Shown in pieces: positions 10,675 to 24,618 of a stretch of DNA of 43,325 nt (position 1 is the stretch's first letter; every line of letters begins with the position of its first letter). The translations under genes were made by a program, and so were the position numbers. The notes beneath the pieces were generated by a model. That model was given only the letters and a program-made list of their open reading frames with translations, had not been told where the DNA came from and did no database searches. The DNA comes from a virus, in IMG/VR virus record IMGVR_UViG_3300036780_000152, positions 1-43,325 of that record; one strand, written 5' to 3'.

Positions 10675-10878
10675 TCAGACACGGTCGATCTCCTGCAACG
10701 CCCGAAGGTTGCGCAATGTATCCAGCACCGCTGCCATCACGTCGATCCGCCGCCAGGCCGAGCGTTGGTTCATCTGACCGTGCCGCGCGAGACGGCCATA
10801 GACCTCACGCCGCCGTTCGCATTCGCGCTGCACTTCGTCAATTTGCGCGTCGAGGCTGACCGGCACTAACCCGCTCAT
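10675..10878 (-). CDS. Small phage protein with helical repeat (67 aa)
   Basis: MSGLVPVSLDAQIDEVQREC begins a fully helical, charged protein (REVYGRLARHGQMNQ, then MAAVLDTLRNLRALQEIDR). Proteins of this pattern are frequent in phage early regions near recombination genes, but I know of no assigned role. ATG 10878 overlaps the upstream stop by ATGA. Confidence 0.55.
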   Translation of the reverse strand: MSGLVPVSLDAQIDEVQRECERRREVYGRLARHGQMNQRSAWRRIDVMAAVLDTLRNLRALQEIDRV

Positions 10879-11069
10879 CCGCGCTCCCCGACCTTATAAC
10901 AGGTGCAGGCCGCAAACTCCGCGACCGTGTCATCGACCGGCAAGCAGTCACTATCGAAGCACCAGTGCGCGAACTTGCCGGTCAGCACACGGCCGTGCCA
11001 GCGCATGCAGTCCTGCGCCCATGTGACCGATGGTTGGGCAACCGGCGGCCGTCGTTCAGTGTCTGGCAC
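10875..11069 (-). CDS. Small Cys-rich protein (64 aa)
   Basis: GTG 11069 (MPDTERRPPVAQPSVTWAQD) overlaps the end of the upstream gene, so I prefer it to an upstream ATG at 11138. Cysteines occur as DCMRWH, HWCFDSDC and CTCYK, enough for a metal site, though spacing is not a standard zinc ribbon. Unknown function. Confidence 0.45.
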   Translation of the reverse strand: MPDTERRPPVAQPSVTWAQDCMRWHGRVLTGKFAHWCFDSDCLPVDDTVAEFAACTCYKVGERG

Positions 11070-11310
11070 GGGGCACCGAGGCAGTGACGCGTTCCACAAA
11101 GTATTCCATGGCGCGATCCGCCGCCCGCAGCATGTCACTGCGGGTTTCCTCGCTAATATCTTCCAATGCTTCGGCGGCGGTCATGCCGTCCGGACGTTCC
11201 GACTGCGTGATCGCTTCGGCGATGCGGCAAGCGAGTTCAGCGACCTCAAAACTGGCCTCGAACACGCCAGCCGCATAGTCCTGCGGCGTCATCTTGTCGC
11301 TGTCGTTCAT
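11056..11310 (-). CDS. Hypothetical acidic helical protein (84 aa)
   Basis: MNDSDKMTPQDYAAGVFEAS followed by ELACRIAEAITQSERPDGMT is helical and acidic, ending with AADRAMEYFVERV. Start overlaps the upstream stop by ATGA. Part of the early left operon headed by Gp157 and RecT. No family recognised. Confidence 0.5.
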   Translation of the reverse strand: MNDSDKMTPQDYAAGVFEASFEVAELACRIAEAITQSERPDGMTAAEALEDISEETRSDMLRAADRAMEYFVERVTASVPRARH

Positions 11311-11697: not shown

Positions 11698-12939
11698 TCA
11701 GCGCCTCCCGTCGGCGGTTCGCAGCGCGCGCGCGATCTTCTGCTGCACCTCCATTTCGGACGCGAGATCGGCATCCGCCACCTGGCGTAAGTGCGTGGCG
11801 TTCATCGTGTGCAGCGCGCGCAGGTCGTTTGGTTGCTCGCGATGCGCGGCGATCAGTTCATCCCATTTGCCCAGCCAACTGATCGGCTCCGCGAAGGTGT
11901 ATGACAGCGTCGGCGTGGCGATGCGGTAGTCCTCCGTTGCGGCCGGCTCTGGTGCCGGCTCAGAGGGCGGTGCGTCCGCCTCCGGCGCGTCGGTGGGTGC
12001 GTCAATGCTCTCGGGAAAGCGGCGGAGCGCCGCCGAGACCACGCGGTCCAGACGCTCGCGCACGTTGGCGCTGGCCTGATCCAGTACTTTCTGCACCGCA
12101 TCGCTGGCGAGTACGCGGTCGATCGCCGCGCGGCTGTCCGCGCCCGCGAACGCAGCCTCGATCTCGTCCACCAGCACGGCCCAGGTCTTGCGCGCGGGTG
12201 GCGCGGCGGGATCGGCCGCGTTTTCAATCCGCTCCGCAGGTCTCTCGGCGGGCGGGTTGGCCGCCTCGCGCTCCGCGACGCCATCGATGGTCATGCCGGC
12301 CTCGACCTCCCGGTCCTCCATCTCCTCCGCCGCGTAGCCGAACCCTTCCTCCGGGAAGGTGGCGCGCAACACCGCGGCTTTCACACACTTGTGCAACATC
12401 TGCCGTGGCGCCTGCTGCCACCGCGCGTTCGGCACTTCGCTACGGAACCCAGCGCGCCCATAGCTCTCCTCCCAGAACAACTCCTCAGTGAAGGGCTGGC
12501 GCGCACCGTCCACCATCTTGTAGACGGTGACGCGGCACGACAGCGGAAATTGCAAGGACACGCTGCCGGCACGGCGCTCGCCGGTCTGCTCATCCTCCAC
12601 CTGACCGCGGAACGTGCGCTCCACCAGCTTGCCCCATTCCGGCGGGTCCATGCCGGCCCATTTGCCGGTGCGGTGCGCGGTGGTCTCGATTTCGTTGATG
12701 CCGGGCATGACCACCTGCACCTTGCGGCGCACCCGGCTGTTGTACATCGGCACGATGTGGACGGGCTTTTTGTACGGGTCTAGCTTGCGCATGGCGCAGT
12801 AGTCGAGCACCGCCAGCACCACCTCCACGCTTTCCGCAGACGGGTAGAGATCGCACAGCGTGCGCCACGCGACCTCGCTGCCGCTGAACTGATGGGGCTT
12901 GGTGTGTCGCGGGGCGACGGTCATGGGGGCGTAGGCCAT
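11698..12939 (-). CDS. RecT/Bet-family single-strand annealing protein
   Basis: The 413-aa protein starts MAYAPMTVAPRHTKPHQFSG. The Bet/RecT signature is clear in YCAMRKLDPYKKPVHIVPMY, VVMPGINEIETTAHRTGKW with AGMDPPEW, and the core EVPNARWQQAPRQMLHKCVK followed by AVLRATFPEEGFGYAAEEM. These proteins anneal complementary single strands in phage recombination and replication. The second half (about 225-413) is a long Ala/Pro/Glu-rich tail with helices, longer than lambda Bet. No exonuclease of the RecE or Exo type is adjacent, although a VRR-NUC nuclease lies at 14871. Confidence 0.85.
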   Translation of the reverse strand: MAYAPMTVAPRHTKPHQFSGSEVAWRTLCDLYPSAESVEVVLAVLDYCAMRKLDPYKKPVHIVPMYNSRVRRKVQVVMPGINEIETTAHRTGKWAGMDPPEWGKLVERTFRGQVEDEQTGERRAGSVSLQFPLSCRVTVYKMVDGARQPFTEELFWEESYGRAGFRSEVPNARWQQAPRQMLHKCVKAAVLRATFPEEGFGYAAEEMEDREVEAGMTIDGVAEREAANPPAERPAERIENAADPAAPPARKTWAVLVDEIEAAFAGADSRAAIDRVLASDAVQKVLDQASANVRERLDRVVSAALRRFPESIDAPTDAPEADAPPSEPAPEPAATEDYRIATPTLSYTFAEPISWLGKWDELIAAHREQPNDLRALHTMNATHLRQVADADLASEMEVQQKIARALRTADGRR

Positions 12940-15642: not shown

Positions 15643-16586
15643 CGGATCATCCCGACCCAAGGCCGCCGCCGCTGGTTCCGGCCGAGGTGGATCTGACGGA
15701 TTTCAGCTTCATGCCGCTCTACATCGCCAGGCTGAAACAGTCCAAGGCATGGGCCTACGCACGGCGCAATCCGGCCATTGGATTCTACCTCATCAACCTC
15801 TGGACTCACGCCTGGCACGGCGCCCCTGCGGGCAGCCTGGAGGACGATGAAATGCTGCTCGCCGACGCGGCGCAGTGTAATATAAAAATTTGGACGAAGG
15901 TAAGCAGTACTGTCCTACGTAGCTGGATACAATGTAACGACGGCCGCTACTATCACCCGGTTATCGCCGACATCGTTCTGGAGGCATGGCAGAGAAAGGT
16001 TGCGCAACACGAACGTACCGAAGCTGCGCGCCGCGCAAAACAACAGAAACGCGCCAAACTACTGAACGGTAGCGGCTCCCCTGACGGCGGCGTCCTGGCG
16101 TCTGTCACAACCTCTGTAACAGAGCCTGTAACAGAGCCTGTAACAACCTCTGCGACAACCGATGTAACAGTGACTGTGACAGACCTGTCACTGCATCCAA
16201 GGGACAGGGACAGGGACAGGGACAGTAAAAGAAAGAAAAGGGAGAGTTCACTACGTTCACTCTCCCAAACGAAAGCGCCGGACGACGATCCGGCGTTCGA
16301 CCGGTTCTGGACGAGCTACCCGCGCCGGGTCGGCAAGGGCCAGGCGCGGCGTGCGTTCGCGCATGCGCTGCGGCGCACCTCGCTCGGCGCGATCCTGGCC
16401 GCGTTGGAACGCCAGCACGCCGCTGGCGTGTTCCGCCGCCAGCAATTTGTTCCGCATCCAGCGACTTGGCTGAACGGCGAGCGCTGGCTGGACGACCTGC
16501 CGGAGCATCCCGACGCCGCCGTGCTGCGCGCCGTTGGCGTCGATCCGGACGACCTCGACAACCCGCTGGGAGGGCTGCTGCATTGA
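15639..16586 (+). CDS. Phage replication initiator-like protein (lambda O analogue)
   Basis: The 315-aa protein has a DUF1376-like N-terminal domain (about 20-125: FMPLYIARLKQSKAWAYARR, GFYLINLWTHAWHGAPAGSL). A repetitive linker follows (151-205: VTEPVTEPVTT, RDRDRDRD). The C-terminal domain (219-300: FDRFWTSYPRRVGKGQARRA, FVPHPATWLNGERWLDD) is typical of phage replication proteins. The linker-coding DNA is made of short direct repeats and is probably the origin. Winged-helix and nuclease genes precede it; ATGA and TTGA overlaps couple it to both neighbours. Confidence 0.75.
   Translation: MTDHPDPRPPPLVPAEVDLTDFSFMPLYIARLKQSKAWAYARRNPAIGFYLINLWTHAWHGAPAGSLEDDEMLLADAAQCNIKIWTKVSSTVLRSWIQCNDGRYYHPVIADIVLEAWQRKVAQHERTEAARRAKQQKRAKLLNGSGSPDGGVLASVTTSVTEPVTEPVTTSATTDVTVTVTDLSLHPRDRDRDRDSKRKKRESSLRSLSQTKAPDDDPAFDRFWTSYPRRVGKGQARRAFAHALRRTSLGAILAALERQHAAGVFRRQQFVPHPATWLNGERWLDDLPEHPDAAVLRAVGVDPDDLDNPLGGLLH
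16114..16266 (+). repeat. Candidate replication origin inside the initiator gene
   Basis: Three 12-bp iterons follow head to tail (CTGTAACAGAGC 16114-16125, 16126-16137, then CTGTAACAACCT 16138-16149), with related GTAACAGTG and GTGACAG units after them. Four GGGACA repeats (16201-16224), an A/G-rich easily melted stretch (16225-16242) and an 8-bp inverted repeat GGGAGAGT/ACTCTCCC (16240-16247, 16259-16266) complete it. Iterons, a purine-rich tract and a hairpin inside the initiator gene match the lambda ori-in-O layout. Confidence 0.6.
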
Positions 16587-19650: not shown

Positions 19651-20022
19651 TCACTCCCCCACCAGCGCGAGCGTGCCAGTGATGCGGTTGGTGACATCGT
19701 AGAGTTCCGACCACATCACTGGCACGATGACCAATCCGGCATGTTGGCGTGCGTTCAAAATGCCAGATAGGTGTGCGAGCGCCCGCAACTCAATCAGCAA
19801 CTGCGGTGCCGCTGCGATCAGCCTGCCGTGTGCCAGCGTCTCGGTCAGCCGCGCGTCGTGGTTGTCGCCTTGCGCGGCGTGGCGATAGACGTTCTCAAGC
19901 TCGCAGATCGTCCGCGTGTGGTCCGCGGTGGTGATGGTGACAATGTGGCGGGTGACGGCGCCATCCGTGCTTTGGTAGTGGTTCATGCGCCAAGTTGGCG
20001 CGGTTGCGGTCTCTATGCTCAT
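19651..20022 (-). CDS. Hypothetical protein (123 aa) with shared accessory leader
   Basis: The 5' leader is the CGAGC...GGCTTG type shared with several neighbours (20023-20041). The product MSIETATAPTWRMNHYQSTD has beta strands (RHIVTITTADHTRTICELEN) followed by helices (AAPQLLIELRALAHLSGILN), similar in shape to small phage proteins of unknown role. Confidence 0.55.
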   Translation of the reverse strand: MSIETATAPTWRMNHYQSTDGAVTRHIVTITTADHTRTICELENVYRHAAQGDNHDARLTETLAHGRLIAAAPQLLIELRALAHLSGILNARQHAGLVIVPVMWSELYDVTNRITGTLALVGE

Positions 20023-20077
20023 ATCAAGCCTCCGTCGCTCGGGTGATGGCCGGGCACAACCGCTCGGCCGGTGTGCA

Positions 20078-20479
20078 TCAACCGCCGAAGTAAAACGACT
20101 GCGCGTATGTCAACAGCGGCGTCCTGTCGCAGGGGACATTAGTCCATAGCGATCCCCAATCTTGCCATTCAAGGCGCGCGCTGTCGGGTTCGTAGTAGCC
20201 GTTCAATTCGCCGATGACGCGCAAGGCCGGCCCTCCGGTTGTTAGTAGCAGGCAGTATTCGCCTTCTCTCGCTGATAGTGTCGCGCCCGGATCTGCCCAT
20301 GCGCTGCGGACCTGCGCCGCTAGTGGAGCCGGTTTCGCGTCTTCGTGCGCGTCACTGTCGTATTCGCCGAAGTCAGAACCTGATTCTACGCCGATCTTGC
20401 CGGCAGCCGCGCACCACGCAGCTATCTCCGCATGCCATGCGCGCGCGTTGTCGATTGCGTGTCGGTTGTTGCTTGCCAT
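20078..20479 (-). CDS. Hypothetical acidic protein (133 aa) with shared leader
   Basis: ATG 20479 follows the conserved leader CGAGCAAAGAAAGGCTTAAC. The product MASNNRHAIDNARAWHAEIA has a negatively charged stretch (SDFGEYDSDAHEDAK) and aromatic C-terminal part (LEWQDWGSLWTN, YAQSFYFGG). An acidic surface would suit DNA mimicry, but that is only a suggestion. Confidence 0.55.
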   Translation of the reverse strand: MASNNRHAIDNARAWHAEIAAWCAAAGKIGVESGSDFGEYDSDAHEDAKPAPLAAQVRSAWADPGATLSAREGEYCLLLTTGGPALRVIGELNGYYEPDSARLEWQDWGSLWTNVPCDRTPLLTYAQSFYFGG

Positions 20480-20531
20480 TGTTAAGCCTTTCTTTGCTCG
20501 GTTACGCACGACCCATGCCGCGCGCCTTGGT

Positions 20532-20583
20532 CCGAACCAAGGGACAAGCGGGCATCGTGCGATGCCCCTTGCCTCATGGTTAG
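20532..20583 (-). repeat. Linker hairpin A of the accessory region
   Basis: AACCA (20535-20539) and TGGTT (20577-20581) enclose a GC stem GGGCATC/GATGCCC with tetraloop GTGC. The element overlaps the end of the 20580 gene and precedes the leader of the 20479 gene. Elements B and C have the same plan. No uridine run follows, so it is not a standard terminator. Confidence 0.65.
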
Positions 20584-20795
20584 TGACCTAACGCGCGCAG
20601 CAGCGCGGTAATCATCGCCACCAGCGCGCCAGTGAATGCAGCGCCAGCACCGAACGCCAGCGCCATCGCTTTCCAGGGTTCCCAGCGTATCTGCCCCTTC
20701 AAGTGCTCGATCTGGATGGTCATAAGTGCGATCCTCAGTTGTCGTTCCGCCGCGTCGTGGCGCACTGTCACGCGCTCGCCTTTACGCATGCGCAC
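20580..20795 (-). CDS. Small single-span membrane protein
   Basis: The N-terminal half is a charged helix (AAERQLRIALMTIQIEHLKG) and the C-terminal half one membrane span (about 43-68, AMALAFGAGAAFTGALVAMI). ATG at 20795 or 20789. It overlaps the upstream gene by 28 bp. Candidate holin or anchor; no proof. Confidence 0.55.
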   Translation of the reverse strand: MRMRKGERVTVRHDAAERQLRIALMTIQIEHLKGQIRWEPWKAMALAFGAGAAFTGALVAMITALLRALGH

Positions 20796-21139
20796 ATACG
20801 CGCCAACGATCCGCGTGCTTCCTTTGTCGCTTCGCTGACCATATCGCGGAAGTATCCGCCCGACTTGAAGTCGGCCCAGCCGTGATAGCTTAACCCGCCG
20901 AGGTAATCTTCGCCCAGCACGCGCTCGCGCGTCATCGCCCAGTTCTTGGGGTTATCCGCGTCAATGAACGCGACCCGCACCCGCGCCATGAACCAGTGCC
21001 AGCCGCCCTCGCGCGCGAACGCAACGTCGTCGGCGGCATCGAACTGTCCGGCCGGATCATCATCCTCCGGGGCAACAGCACACGTGACGGCAAAGCGCGC
21101 CGTGCGGAACTCCCAAACCGTTTCCCATTGTGCGCCCAT
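20768..21139 (-). CDS. Hypothetical protein (123 aa) with shared leader
   Basis: A leader CGGAGCGGATGGCTTGAC precedes ATG 21139, which itself follows a strong promoter (21191-21219). The product MGAQWETVWEFRTARFAVTC begins beta-rich and continues GGWHWFMARVRVAFIDADNP and a helical basic end. It reads like a conserved small phage protein, but I cannot name it. Confidence 0.55.
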   Translation of the reverse strand: MGAQWETVWEFRTARFAVTCAVAPEDDDPAGQFDAADDVAFAREGGWHWFMARVRVAFIDADNPKNWAMTRERVLGEDYLGGLSYHGWADFKSGGYFRDMVSEATKEARGSLARMCACVKASA

Positions 21140-21190
21140 GTCAAGCCATCCGCTCCGTTGGGGCAGACCCCATGCCCGCCCCGTGTGATT

Positions 21191-21232
21191 GTTCTACTCG
21201 TGTCGCGTCGTGGTGTCAACGCGGATTATGCG
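21191..21232 (-). promoter_or_regulatory. Promoter of the 21139 gene with upstream CGCATAATC element
   Basis: On the minus strand TTGACA (21219-21214), 17-bp spacer, TAGAAC (21196-21191). Directly upstream of the -35 is CGCATAATCCGCG (21232-21220), an imperfect palindrome also found in inverted form beside the TTGACA at 24068-24073. It may be an activator or repressor site specific to the accessory block. Confidence 0.65.
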
Positions 21233-21236
21233 TCGC

Positions 21237-21515
21237 CTAGGTCTTAGTGTGTGGCGGATATACGCCCGTGATGTGCTGCGCATCCCAGACCACGGAAGCG
21301 ACCGAACCATCAAGGTTAGCGCGTTCGCACACTAGGCCATCGTGCAAGCCGTCATCACGAAGATCGAATGCTACACGCCAACCATCTGCCGGGGTTGCGT
21401 TGGCCGCGTAGTCTCCGCGCTGTTGCCCCATGTCGCGCTGATACTCGCCGCGCAGGATGTGCAGGTCCGGAATGACGATCCAGCCTACAAGGCTGCCGCT
21501 AGGGAGTTTTGTCAT
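21237..21515 (-). CDS. Hypothetical protein (92 aa)
   Basis: Start ATG 21515 (MTKLPSGSLVGWIVIPDLHI) follows the previous stop by 2 bp. Beta-rich with WRVAFDLRDDGLHDG and SVASVVWDAQHITGVYPP. No domain recognised. Confidence 0.5.
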   Translation of the reverse strand: MTKLPSGSLVGWIVIPDLHILRGEYQRDMGQQRGDYAANATPADGWRVAFDLRDDGLHDGLVCERANLDGSVASVVWDAQHITGVYPPHTKT

Positions 21516-21517
21516 CG

Positions 21518-21757
21518 TCAGCCCATCCGTCCGCCAAGTGCCCACGCGGCAACGGTGCCTTGCGGGTAGGGTGCGAGCGCCAGGATGGCGCAGGTGCAGG
21601 TCTGCACATGCCCCGCCTCGGGATGCTCCGCTTCCTTCAGTGCCGCGCCAGCGCCGATAAAGAACTCGAACACTGCGGCATCCGCCCTGCGCCCCTTCAG
21701 ATCCAGCGCTTGTTTGCGTTCGATCCACTTGATGGCCAGTTTCTGTAACATCATCAT
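21518..21757 (-). CDS. Hypothetical small protein (79 aa) with shared leader
   Basis: Three ATG codons in a row follow the leader CGAGCAAGGGCTTGACG; I use the first (21757). MMMLQKLAIKWIERKQALDL then AAVFEFFIGAGAALKEAEHP and CTCAILALAPYPQGTVAAWA suggests a compact alpha/beta protein, with EAGHVQTCTC as a possible metal site. Confidence 0.5.
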   Translation of the reverse strand: MMMLQKLAIKWIERKQALDLKGRRADAAVFEFFIGAGAALKEAEHPEAGHVQTCTCAILALAPYPQGTVAAWALGGRMG

Positions 21758-21806
21758 CGTCAAGCCCTTGCTCGATTGGCACGGCACTGCGCCGCGCCAC
21801 CATGAT

Positions 21807-21856
21807 CCGAACCATGGGAGAGGCAGCGCGCGAGCGCTACCTCCCTCCTGGTTAGG
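21807..21856 (-). repeat. Linker hairpin B of the accessory region
   Basis: AACCA (21810-21814) and TGGTT (21849-21853) enclose the stem AGCGC/GCGCT with tetraloop GCGA, extended by GG/CC pairs. The ArdC stop codon TAA is part of the outer arm (TAACCA on the minus strand). It lies between the ArdC stop and the leader of the 21757 gene. Confidence 0.65.
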
Positions 21857-22574
21857 CTGCGACCTGCTGCGTGGGCGCTTCTGCCAGTTTGGACAGGTAG
21901 TCCACTGCATCGCTTGCCTTGCTAGCGGCCGTGAAGATCGCCCGCTTGTCATTCTTCAGGACCCGCAACCAATTGGCGATGTAGGCCGCGTGGTCGCGCC
22001 GGAACTCTGGCGTGATCTGCAACGCGCCGCACACGAACGCCGCGCCCATCTCTGCAATCAGTTCCTCAGCCGCATAGGCTTCATCGCCGAACCGGCCGGT
22101 AAGGTTCCGGTTGCAGCGCGATGGTGTCGCCGTCCAATGTGTCAATTCGTGGAACAGCGTGCCATAGGCCGCCTCTTGCGCCACGTTGAAAACGTGCGAG
22201 TGTTTCAGGAAGCGCACTGTGCGCGCGCTGTCATCGTCACCGGATGGTGCGCTAGGGTCACGCACAGTGGTCGAACCGTAATAGACCACCAGCGCGCCGC
22301 GCTCCCCCTTGTGCACCTGCGCGCCCGCCGTGGTCCATTGCTGATAGCTTGCCCAATGGTTCCGCTGGTAGCCGCAACCCGCTGCGGTCATACCGAGGGA
22401 GATAATGTTAATCCCGCGATACGCTTTCCCGGTGGTCGCGTTCATGGCGTTGCCAACCCGCGCTGCGGCGATCCATGGCATTTCCCAAGTGCCCGCGCCT
22501 TGCTCGATTGCGGAGATCACTTTGTCAGTGATCTCCTGATAGATGTCGCGTCGTTCCGTTGTGTCTCGTGCCAT
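21852..22574 (-). CDS. ardC: ArdC-like antirestriction protein with internal deletion
   Basis: The N-terminal ssDNA-binding ArdC domain is clear (MARDTTERRDIYQEITDKVI, AYRGINIISLG, QVHKGERGALVVYYGSTTV). So is the zincin-like C-terminal part (HELTHW at 142-147, AEELIAEMGAAFVCGALQI, AAYIANWLRVLKNDKRAIFT). ArdC proteins protect incoming DNA from restriction. In the usual family the VFNV motif is separated from the metallopeptidase region by roughly 60 residues (D-G-L-P ... A-Y-Y); here VFNVAQ runs directly into EAAYGTLF. The product is thus 240 aa rather than about 300. Metal ligands are kept. Leader CGAGCGAAAGGCTTG precedes it. Confidence 0.85.
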   Translation of the reverse strand: MARDTTERRDIYQEITDKVISAIEQGAGTWEMPWIAAARVGNAMNATTGKAYRGINIISLGMTAAGCGYQRNHWASYQQWTTAGAQVHKGERGALVVYYGSTTVRDPSAPSGDDDSARTVRFLKHSHVFNVAQEAAYGTLFHELTHWTATPSRCNRNLTGRFGDEAYAAEELIAEMGAAFVCGALQITPEFRRDHAAYIANWLRVLKNDKRAIFTAASKASDAVDYLSKLAEAPTQQVAA

Positions 22575-22627
22575 CGTGCAAGCCTTTCGCTCGTGTTTCC
22601 GGTCACCTGTGCAACCGGCCTTGATTA

Positions 22628-22678
22628 CCGAACCAAGGGACTAACGGCGCGCGTGCGCCGCTGGCCTATTGGTTAGGT
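22628..22678 (-). repeat. Linker hairpin C of the accessory region
   Basis: AACCA (22631-22635) and TGGTT (22670-22674) enclose CGGCGC/GCGCCG (22645-22650, 22655-22660) with tetraloop GCGT. It separates the ArdC leader from the small peptide gene upstream and has the same outer arms as A and B while the inner stem differs, so pairing rather than sequence is kept. Confidence 0.65.
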
Positions 22679-22734
22679 TCCGACAGCGGCCGAGGGAAGG
22701 GAAGGCTGGCGCGCTGGAAAATGTCGGAAGGCAT
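22666..22734 (-). CDS. Possible 22-residue peptide gene
   Basis: ATG 22734 follows the preceding stop by 3 bp and encodes MPSDIFQRASLPFPRPLSEP plus NQ, ending at TAG inside hairpin C. Stops inside the same kind of hairpin are seen for ArdC and the 20580 gene, which supports it. It is too short for firm assignment. Confidence 0.35.
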   Translation of the reverse strand: MPSDIFQRASLPFPRPLSEPNQ

Positions 22735-22737
22735 GTG

Positions 22738-23016
22738 TCAGACTCCCTTCGCCCACGTCCACAGTTCCGGTCCGTCTTCATAGGTGGCGATCAAGCGTCG
22801 GTCGGATGGGCAACCGTCATCGTCAGCAAAATCGCCAAGTTGATCGATCGTCACATAGTCTAGCTCAAGGCCCGGCTTAGGCTCGCGGCACTTCGGCACC
22901 TGACTTTCCACGTATTTGCGCATCTGCGCCCATGTGTTGAAGTCGGCTTGCTGGATGCTCCCGACGATCTCGTCAGCGTCGCCCCGGCGGTAACGCCAGA
23001 TGATTTCCGCCTTCAT
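22738..23016 (-). CDS. Hypothetical protein (92 aa)
   Basis: MKAEIIWRYRRGDADEIVGS begins an alpha/beta protein with FNTWAQMRKYVESQVPKC and a C-terminal strand-rich part (LELDYVTIDQLGDFAD, RLIATYEDGPELWTW). A GGAGGATTGAACG region precedes the ATG. It reads like a small accessory phage protein of unknown role. Confidence 0.55.
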   Translation of the reverse strand: MKAEIIWRYRRGDADEIVGSIQQADFNTWAQMRKYVESQVPKCREPKPGLELDYVTIDQLGDFADDDGCPSDRRLIATYEDGPELWTWAKGV

Positions 23017-23019
23017 CGT

Positions 23020-23232
23020 TCAATCCTCCGCCGGACCATCGCACCAGAAGGATAGGCCCTTCTCGGCAAAGGCTTGGCGAGAGAACATCCAACGGCGCCC
23101 AGCGACGATCCACAAACCATCCGCCCTATAAACCGGCGCGCGACTCAGAAGTAGGTAGCGATACCGGATAGCTTCCGCTCCCCTATCAAGTATATCCCCG
23201 GCTTTCGCCGTCCGAAAGTCGGTTGCGAGCAC
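23020..23232 (-). CDS. Hypothetical protein (70 aa or slightly longer)
   Basis: GTG 23232 begins MLATDFRTAKAGDILDRGAE; the frame stays open upstream to the previous stop (EPTTNQKAPPPG), so a rare ATT start at about 23271 overlapping that stop is possible. Content YRYLLLSRAPVYRADGLWIV and WMFSRQAFAEKGLSFWCDGP suggests a small beta-rich domain. Function unknown. Confidence 0.5.
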   Translation of the reverse strand: MLATDFRTAKAGDILDRGAEAIRYRYLLLSRAPVYRADGLWIVAGRRWMFSRQAFAEKGLSFWCDGPAED

Positions 23233-23266
23233 GCCCGGTGGAGGTGCCTTCTGGTTCGTCGTCGGT

Positions 23267-23419
23267 TCAATCCTCCCGCGCGGGTTGCAGTATCTCGGCG
23301 CATTCCAGCAATTCCACGAGACGCCGCGCCCACTGCGCCGCTTGCTGTTGCTTGCCGCACGCCTTGTAAGCGATGGCCTTGGACAAGGCGCGTGCGGCTT
23401 CGGTGCGATCTATGTTCAT
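23267..23419 (-). CDS. Small helical phage protein (50 aa)
   Basis: ATG 23419 begins MNIDRTEAARALSKAIAYKA, then CGKQQQAAQWARRLVELLEC and AEILQPARED. It reads as a two-helix protein. The leader GAGACTTGAACC resembles that of the neighbouring gene. Confidence 0.55.
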   Translation of the reverse strand: MNIDRTEAARALSKAIAYKACGKQQQAAQWARRLVELLECAEILQPARED

Positions 23420-23422
23420 GGT

Positions 23423-23626
23423 TCAAGTCTCTCCCGCGAGATACGCGACGGCGTCTACTTCGTTGTCGAAGTGGCGCTTACCACGCTTAGGATCGGCCGG
23501 TGAGGCAATCCAGTCTACGTGGTCTCCCGGGAGCGGGCAGTAAATCAGACCGAGGTGCGGGATGCCGCGATAAACCGATATGATGTTGCCGGTTGTCTCG
23601 TGGCGGATGATTGTGAGTTTTGCCAT
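23423..23626 (-). CDS. Hypothetical small protein (67 aa) with shared leader
   Basis: Leader CGAGCATGAGGCTTGAACC precedes ATG 23626. MAKLTIIRHETTGNIISVYR then GLIYCPLPGDHVDWIASPAD and HFDNEVDAVAYLAGE form a beta-beta-alpha pattern. It follows linker hairpin D. Confidence 0.55.
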   Translation of the reverse strand: MAKLTIIRHETTGNIISVYRGIPHLGLIYCPLPGDHVDWIASPADPKRGKRHFDNEVDAVAYLAGET

Positions 23627-23656
23627 GGTTCAAGCCTCATGCTCGGTTGTGGTGGT

Positions 23657-23714
23657 CTAGGCTAGGAACAATCGGCAGGCTCGCGCGAGCCGATTGCTTC
23701 AAGGCTAGGCTAGG
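23657..23714 (-). repeat. Linker hairpin D with flanking direct repeats
   Basis: CTAGGCTAGG occurs at 23657-23666 and 23705-23714, flanking a perfect 14-bp palindrome GGCTCGCGCGAGCC (23678-23691) with further pairing AATCGG/CCGATT. The second direct repeat includes the stop codon of the 23705 gene. Same position as hairpins A-C but with different outer arms. Confidence 0.6.
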
Positions 23715-23998
23715 ATGGTTCCCCACTGTGCTGCGATGCGTCGCTGCATTGTCACGCTACCGCAGTTTGCAGATAACCAACTTCCCCGCGCCGTGCCATC
23801 GTCTAGCTTGCAGCACACGACATAGACGGTGCGGCCGGCTAGCATGTCTCGATGCATCCCGAGACCTTTCCCGCCGTTGCAGCCATTCGCGAGGCTGTAA
23901 TAGGCCAGAGGATAGTTGGTCAGGAAGCGACGCGCCGCTACTGGCGTGATGTCCTGCGTTGCGCCAGTGCTGTTGCAATGCTGGTAGATGATACACAT
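23705..23998 (-). CDS. Hypothetical Cys-containing protein (97 aa), first gene of accessory block
   Basis: ATG 23998 follows the leader CGAGCAAAGGGCTTGGAC. MCIIYQHCNSTGATQDITPV then ARRFLTNYPLAYYSLANGCN and VYVVCCKLDDGTARGSWLSA indicate a beta-rich fold with several cysteines. Transcribed from the divergent region at 24045-24098. Confidence 0.55.
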   Translation of the reverse strand: MCIIYQHCNSTGATQDITPVAARRFLTNYPLAYYSLANGCNGGKGLGMHRDMLAGRTVYVVCCKLDDGTARGSWLSANCGSVTMQRRIAAQWGTILA

Positions 23999-24044
23999 GT
24001 CCAAGCCCTTTGCTCGGTGGTCTGTTATTCGGTAGCCGTTGCAA

Positions 24045-24098
24045 CAAGTAATCGCTGTCAATCCCCCTGTCAACGCATAATCTGCGTGCTGTTACAAT
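24045..24098. promoter_or_regulatory. Divergent promoter region with double TTGACA and CGCATAATC palindrome
   Basis: Leftward, two TTGACA boxes (24061-24056 and 24073-24068) lie 12 bp apart; the distal one has a weak -10 (TTACTT, 24051-24046). Next to it is the palindrome CGCATAATCTGCG (24074-24086). Rightward, TACAAT (24093-24098) is a good -10 for the 24121 gene with a poor -35. Both directions may share control through the palindrome. Confidence 0.5.
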
Positions 24099-24120
24099 TC
24101 TCTTTGCGAGGGCCGGCCGC

Positions 24121-24618
24121 ATGCGCTTCCCGTTGCCACATTGGTGTATCTGGGACGCGCAACCCCTTGTAACTGCTAATGGCGCGTTCTATCGCGTGGC
24201 ATGTCAGCTTGCGGTGGCTTACTGGCGTAGCGGATGCGTGCCGTTGCCCGCCGACGAAATAACGCTCGCTTCGCTCGCGCGTGTGCCTGTTCCTCGGCTG
24301 CGCGACATGAAAGAGCAACTGACCGCTGCGTTCGCTGTGATCCTGCCAGCCCTGGACGCGGAGCATGTGCGCTGCGCGCACCACCACCAGCAACGTGTGC
24401 GCGCCAGCCATCACATGACCGCTGTGCGTGAGGCGAGGAAGCGACGCGCCGCGCTATCCGAGGAGTCGGCGGAGGTGACGTTCCCCCTCCCGCGGCTACA
24501 GGAGACGCCTGACGACATGCCTGCGGCCTACGTGTGCGAGCGGGGGGGAAAGGCTACAGCCTCCCAACGTCGCGCCCGGCGCCACGCTACAGCCAAGGCC
24601 GTGCCCTTCACCGATTGA
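24121..24618 (+). CDS. DUF1376-like / replication-associated phage protein (possible)
   Basis: The 165-aa product starts MRFPLPHWCIWDAQPLVTAN, with ACQLAVAYWRSGCVPLPADE, TLASLARVPVPRLRDMKEQL and a His/Arg-rich helix (VRCAHHHQQRVRASHHM). The order, hydrophobic start, PLPxD then a decision helix and a basic tail, resembles the DUF1376 family of phage replication-region proteins, and the N-terminal part of the initiator at 15639. Assignment is tentative. Confidence 0.5.
   Translation: MRFPLPHWCIWDAQPLVTANGAFYRVACQLAVAYWRSGCVPLPADEITLASLARVPVPRLRDMKEQLTAAFAVILPALDAEHVRCAHHHQQRVRASHHMTAVREARKRRAALSEESAEVTFPLPRLQETPDDMPAAYVCERGGKATASQRRARRHATAKAVPFTD

Follow-up and report, generated by a model that had tools for sequence, protein, structure and literature searches.

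Probable RNA linkers of covarying hairpins at accessory-gene junctions of a temperate-type phage

In IMG/VR virus record IMGVR_UViG_3300036780_000152, a temperate-type phage, several junctions between genes of the leftward accessory operon hold a recurrent linker that is very probably an RNA structure under selection. The whole record of 43,325 bases (the window) was analysed, and the linkers sit in a leftward set of small genes on the minus strand, from approximately 24.1 to 18.7 kb. The linkers stay paired even where their letters differ and the genes beside them have been replaced, and selection therefore appears to act on the shape of the RNA. Sequence analysis makes the linkers a strong candidate cis-acting mRNA element of novel sequence. 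For its role, the odds are about even that it is a repeated cis-acting RNA module that would provide each gene of the operon with a protected, ribosome-ready leader.

Three linkers, designated A, B and C, follow a single plan. The pattern TAACCA-N18-45-TGGTTCGG-N2-6-CAWGG has three matches on the coding (minus) strand, with 0.00 expected from shuffled sequences, which confirms the three hairpin junctions framed by AACCA and TGGTT that an earlier note on this DNA had picked out (20525-20582, 21800-21854 and 22619-22675). When whole junctions are folded, each gives the same order, i.e. a TAA, hairpins 1 to 3 (hp1, hp2 and hp3), a short gap, a fourth hairpin (hp4) and an ATG (Table 1). The longest is hp1, with about 12-13 bp or about 18 with its outer stem; hp2 has the form CCWTGGT-loop-AYCAWGG and has its TGGTT in common with the 3' arm of extended hp1, and hp3, of 8-9 bp, adjoins hp2 with 0 nt between them in all three. 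The fold z-scores of A, B and C are -3.8, -5.1 and -3.4, respectively, and the lowest values of the region in background fold windows overlap B and C. The earlier note had placed the hairpin at a stop codon, and a TAA does open the chain in all three, but in the window the open reading frame upstream of C stops approximately 60 nt earlier; in the related phage described below, the TAA of TAACCA at linker C is the stop of the upstream gene. The G-starting tetraloop also described there was incorrect, because the non-coding strand had been read: the RNA loops are GCAC, UCGC and ACGC.

The last hairpin of the chain, hp4, is the leader. GAGC-N3-7-GGCTTG has seven matches in the whole window where 0.74 are expected by chance; six of these lie directly before starts in this region, and a further start (20479) carries GGCTTA instead of GGCTTG. 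A common leader had been claimed for seven starts with a spacer of 5 or 6 nt, which stands for the six with GGCTTG and needs correction for 20479 and for the spacer, which is 3-7 nt. The hp4 loop holds Shine-Dalgarno-like purines, e.g. AAGG or GAAAG, just before the ATG, in keeping with the proposal that each gene has its own ribosome site. The proposed terminator for each gene was not borne out, no intrinsic-terminator-like site (a G+C-rich hairpin followed by a U run) being found at A-D. Two further modules, E and F, consist of hp3 and hp4 only, without hp1 or hp2, and the fourth junction with a different hairpin that had been noted earlier is present as linker D. The putative promoter of F, read by eye, would put hp3 near the expected RNA start; its TAGAAC is a weak -10 that was not picked up by the promoter scan. 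The earlier note had missed hp2, hp3, the hairpin form of the leader, modules E and F, and the exchange of genes around the linkers.

Table 1. Positions of the linkers, their hairpins and associated sites in the window
Feature	Position	Strand	Remarks
Linker A, whole	20480-20582	-	TAA stop, hp1, hp2, hp3, hp4, to ATG of gene 20479
A hp1, extended form	20535-20581	-	AACCA:TGGTT paired
A hp2	20525-20542	-	CCTTGGT-TCGG-ACCAAGG; overlaps hp1 3' arm
A hp3	20505-20524	-	8 bp, loop AUGG; 0 nt from hp2
A hp4 leader	20483-20500	-	GAGC-N7-GGCTTA
Linker B, whole	21758-21854	-	Between ArdC-like gene and gene 21757; fold z -5.1
B hp1, extended form	21810-21853	-	
B hp2	21800-21817	-	CCATGGT-TCGG-ATCATGG; U-A to A-U relative to A and C
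B hp3	21777-21799	-	9 bp
B hp4 leader	21760-21775	-	UCGAGC-AAGG-GCUUGA
Linker C, whole	22575-22675	-	Upstream of ArdC-like gene
C hp1, extended form	22631-22674	-	
C hp2	22619-22638	-	8 bp
C hp3	22599-22618	-	Five two-sided compensatory changes in L089
C hp4 leader	22579-22593	-	GAGC to AAGC in L089, pairing kept
Module E	20023-20077	-	Upstream of gene 20022; hp3 20048-20069, hp4 20025-20041; kept up to ATG in L089
Module F	21140-21190	-	Upstream of gene 21139; hp3 21160-21182, hp4 21143-21155; behind promoter-like site
Promoter-like site of F	21191-21232	-	CGCATAATCCGCG palindrome-like stretch, TTGACA-17-TAGAAC; read by eye
Second copy of palindrome-like stretch with TTGACA	24068-24086	-	Head of leftward gene set; no clear -10
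Linker D	23657-23713	-	Different hairpin between CTAGCCTAG repeats; hp4-type leader downstream
hp4 leader of gene 23626	23631-23645	-	
hp4 leader of gene 23998	24001-24017	-	

A single relative is present in IMG/VR, IMGVR_UViG_3300036800_000162 (L089), with flanking DNA that is 94-96% identical. Only three of the 14 local proteins (19.6-24.1 kb) have an L089 counterpart by BLASTP, and L089 has all of A, B, C, E and F despite the mostly different genes. Linker A is 90% identical over 90 bp (20494-20583) while the genes on both sides differ, and in L089 a 79-amino-acid gene separates leader E from the gene that stands after this leader in the window. Blocks of identity between both phages end at or near the ATG or stop-codon edges of the linkers, and leaders adjoining start codons number seven in the window and seven in L089, before mostly unrelated genes. 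The modular design suspected earlier is strongly supported by these comparisons, with linkers persisting while the genes on one or both sides have been exchanged; the exchange itself is likely a consequence of the linkers rather than their function.

The hp2, hp3 and hp4 stems of A, B, C, E and F differ from those of L089 by 19 substitutions in 14 pairs, and none of these pairs is unpaired in L089, although approximately 13 would be expected to be broken under random substitution and approximately 7 under transitions only. Blind folding of the relative's junctions recovered the same hp3 in each of these five linkers and modules, and in hp3 of C five pairs are changed on both sides. When hp1 and hp2 of six linkers are aligned, 94.7% of cells are paired, six pairs are changed on both sides and the alignment score is 0.340 compared to no more than 0.067 in slid controls. 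Covariation thus strongly supports the suggestion that the inner stems vary in sequence and keep their pairing. On the coding strand there are 36 G-U pairs versus five A-C, which indicates RNA rather than a DNA dyad.

The mechanism we infer combines processing or 5' protection with ribosome loading, possibly with a switch linked to the stop codon. The module would act on the mRNA to give each gene its own 5' leader, in which hp1 would be a cleavage or 3'-end protection point (a processing hairpin of this type is possible), hp3 would be a 5' protective hairpin and hp4 would be a standard ribosome-loading structure. The position of hp3 in F, and of the matching hairpin in the parallel units described below from other phages, would be near the expected RNA start of a promoter. 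Any inserted gene would in this way be expressed without dependence on its neighbours. A practical question that is still open is how a phage operon comes to express newly acquired accessory genes correctly; these connectors outlast the genes they join and are conserved in RNA shape, so the question is directly testable by reporter fusions. The module could also aid the annotation of true starts and could serve as a natural gene insulator.

Folding of the linkers also raises the prospect of a switch. UGGUU is contested by the AACCA beside the stop codon, in extended hp1, and by the 3' arm of hp2; forced folds of both conformers are at most 2.4 kcal/mol apart in 6/6 linkers, and when the first 12 nt are occluded, as by a terminating ribosome, hp2 remains in all six. 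These models are suggestive only of two-state behaviour, in which UGGUU would switch between the stop-adjacent AACCA and the downstream arm and a ribosome at the upstream stop would favour hp2. It is distinctly doubtful that the linkers go as far as a bistable, translation-sensed RNA insulator, where the terminating ribosome would reset the fold and set the processing or ribosome loading of the next gene, a standard phage connector for plugging in and expressing foreign accessory genes. Pairing of the free hp2 arm with the CTTG of the leader was dropped as it fails in B.

Several observations weigh against the proposed module. The hp1-hp2 linkers occur in two phages only, and independent changes are few because there are just these two phages and A, B and C are paralogues. 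Stems for the 14-pair count were drawn by hand, which favours pairing, and the five two-sided changes in hp3 of C could stem from a single replacement. The fold z of E and F by themselves is not significant (-0.6 and -1.6, respectively), hence they rest on comparison and not on energy. The switch is without covariation support, since AACCA/TGGTT never varies, and no common downstream read-out of it was found because the hp2 arm of B cannot pair with the leader.

Among known elements, the most similar are the Start-Associated Sequences (SAS) of cluster K mycobacteriophages and their upstream elements (ESAS), which are alike in logic but not in sequence nor, for the upstream part, in nature. SAS are short conserved leaders at the ribosome-binding site of some non-structural genes of different families, with large intergenic gaps, and about half of the sites have an additional upstream inverted-repeat element, the ESAS; these are 17-bp inverted repeats that give no support for RNA pairing, and SigA-like promoters lie within them (PMC11373665). 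The GAGC leaders are likewise conserved within a few bases of the starts of several unrelated genes, but they do not match the 13-bp SAS consensus, GGGATAGGAGCCC or GGGAAAGGACCCC, the leader here being GAGC-N3-7-GGCTTG. Unlike ESAS, the linkers are a chain of covarying RNA hairpins, A-C are without a promoter-like site, and the leader is itself a hairpin. Phage T7 has RNase III processing sites between its early genes. The linkers resemble these as hairpins at gene junctions of an early operon that would give each gene its own message ends, and differ in that a ribosome-site hairpin is a fixed part of them.

Regulation by a protein, in which hp4 and the upstream hairpins would bind a phage or host RNA-binding protein that switches the accessory gene set together, as proposed for SAS, is unlikely. 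It would explain why GAGC and GGCTTG are kept beyond Shine-Dalgarno need in 14 leaders of mostly unrelated genes and why TGGTTCGG is conserved in sequence across the linkers, and SAS and ESAS are precedents; however, hp1 and hp3 conserve structure and not sequence, and no candidate binding protein was identified. The put sites of phage HK022 are cis-acting antitermination RNAs that modify RNA polymerase. By analogy, strong contiguous hairpins that belong to an early-type operon and have no terminators themselves might act in the same manner, but the linkers span from stop to start codon at gene junctions with the leader as a fixed part, and E and F are without hp1 and hp2, leaving this very unlikely. 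Operators or promoters acting as DNA-level dyads, as now proposed for cluster K ESAS, are a remote prospect: hp2 is an 18-bp dyad and F has a promoter-like site and a palindrome-like stretch, but this has to be set against the coding-strand excess of G-U over A-C, the two extra loop bases in hp2 of C, the wholesale change in sequence of its hp3, and the lack of a promoter-like site at A, B and C in the scan.

Two further explanations start from gene exchange. The linkers could be recombination boundaries, short common DNA that lets the phage's own RecT-type annealing protein (RecT/phrog_2449, 11698-12939) swap genes, with hairpins that are incidental. Boundary sequences of mosaic phages are already a described idea, as outlined in PMC3029335, and the homology blocks of both phages do end at ATG or stop edges of linkers, so that short common DNA borders the exchanged genes in both cases; in contrast to that outline, the common DNA here keeps its RNA pairing through sequence change. 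Selection on a boundary should keep the letters, but those of hp3 in C changed while pairing stayed, and the explanation has only a slim chance. Integron-like attC sites with gene cassettes, which gene exchange, AAC...GTT ends and a stop codon at the edge would bring to mind, are scarcely credible after the core-site test, where GTTCGGA or GTTCGGT stands in place of the R' consensus GTTRRRY, with no pairing with RYYYAAC. Furthermore, the conserved block continues to the next start codon with no break at G/TT, and the integrase present, which has an Arm-DNA-bind_3 domain, is of the P4 phage type.

Holders of the candidate RNA module were sought more widely. The linker pattern occurs in 53 stretches of IMG/VR, with L089 as the sole real match, and in six stretches of genome_contigs, none of which has the leader or the full hairpin plan. 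Over 1.06 Mb of loci, the covariance model recovered only the sites already known, on either strand, and three weak matches at chance level; in 289 genomes of the class of an uncultured Rhodobacteraceae, the linker search gave three matches, each with an E of 0.003-0.006, a number close to chance expectation. The covariance-model check suggested in the earlier note has thus given strong covariation but, in IMG/VR, genome_contigs, these loci and the 289 genomes, no holder beyond both phages. A TerL search of the same genomes gave no matches; TerL alignment found no relative in genome_contigs and five contigs only in IMG/VR, four of them under 9 kb. None of the 4227 models of Rfam 15 matched region 19990-24130 up to E = 1. 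AACCA/TGGTT was also considered as a general feature of ArdC loci and rejected, as the motif is scattered in other ArdC loci.

A parallel arrangement was reached via the 50-amino-acid gene at 23270-23419, which encodes a widespread small phage protein with 60 relatives in IMG/VR and in several phages sits behind a repressor-type promoter unit. The excess of 5' hairpins before its relatives is weak (19% with p<0.05). In the fecal phage MT835930.1, the unit comprises TTGACA, a palindrome covering the -10, a hairpin of 8 bp and a 4-nt loop, a GTC-AGAAAG-GAC leader hairpin and the ATG, and it is present three times in whole or part, as two near-identical copies before different genes and one diverged copy; IMG/VR contigs L180, L201 and L186 carry it once each. 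Like the linkers, these units place a short hairpin (8 bp, loop of 4 nt) ahead of a hairpin leader whose loop holds the Shine-Dalgarno; unlike them, they are of other sequence, are without hp1 and hp2 and have a promoter-like site for each unit. The reverse strand of MT835930.1 also holds a near-perfect palindromic hairpin of 14-15 bp at 934-967, TATACGCGTGTGTGCCCGCGCGCATACGCGTATA.

The window encodes a terminase, head proteins, the RecT-type annealing protein and the P4-type integrase. Almost none of the small genes in the leftward set have database relatives, the clear exception being the ArdC-like gene (21852-22574), and the protein search of the genes gave no clue to a defence system. The ArdC-like protein has 240 amino acids in the window and 306 in L089, to which it is 96% identical; a central stretch of approximately 66 amino acids is absent, in frame, from the window copy. 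Adjoining genes at 22738-23280, which are without the GAGC leader, have a second common start context of roughly GGGAGG-N-TTGAAC-ATG, whose TGA often doubles as the stop of the gene before it. L089 alone has a gene (10694-11182) that encodes MGTRSDIIV..., whose family also occurs in large enterobacterial phages, Caulobacter phages and cyanophages. Elsewhere in the window, GTTACA/TGTAAC units are repeated in an inverted array at 16100-16184.

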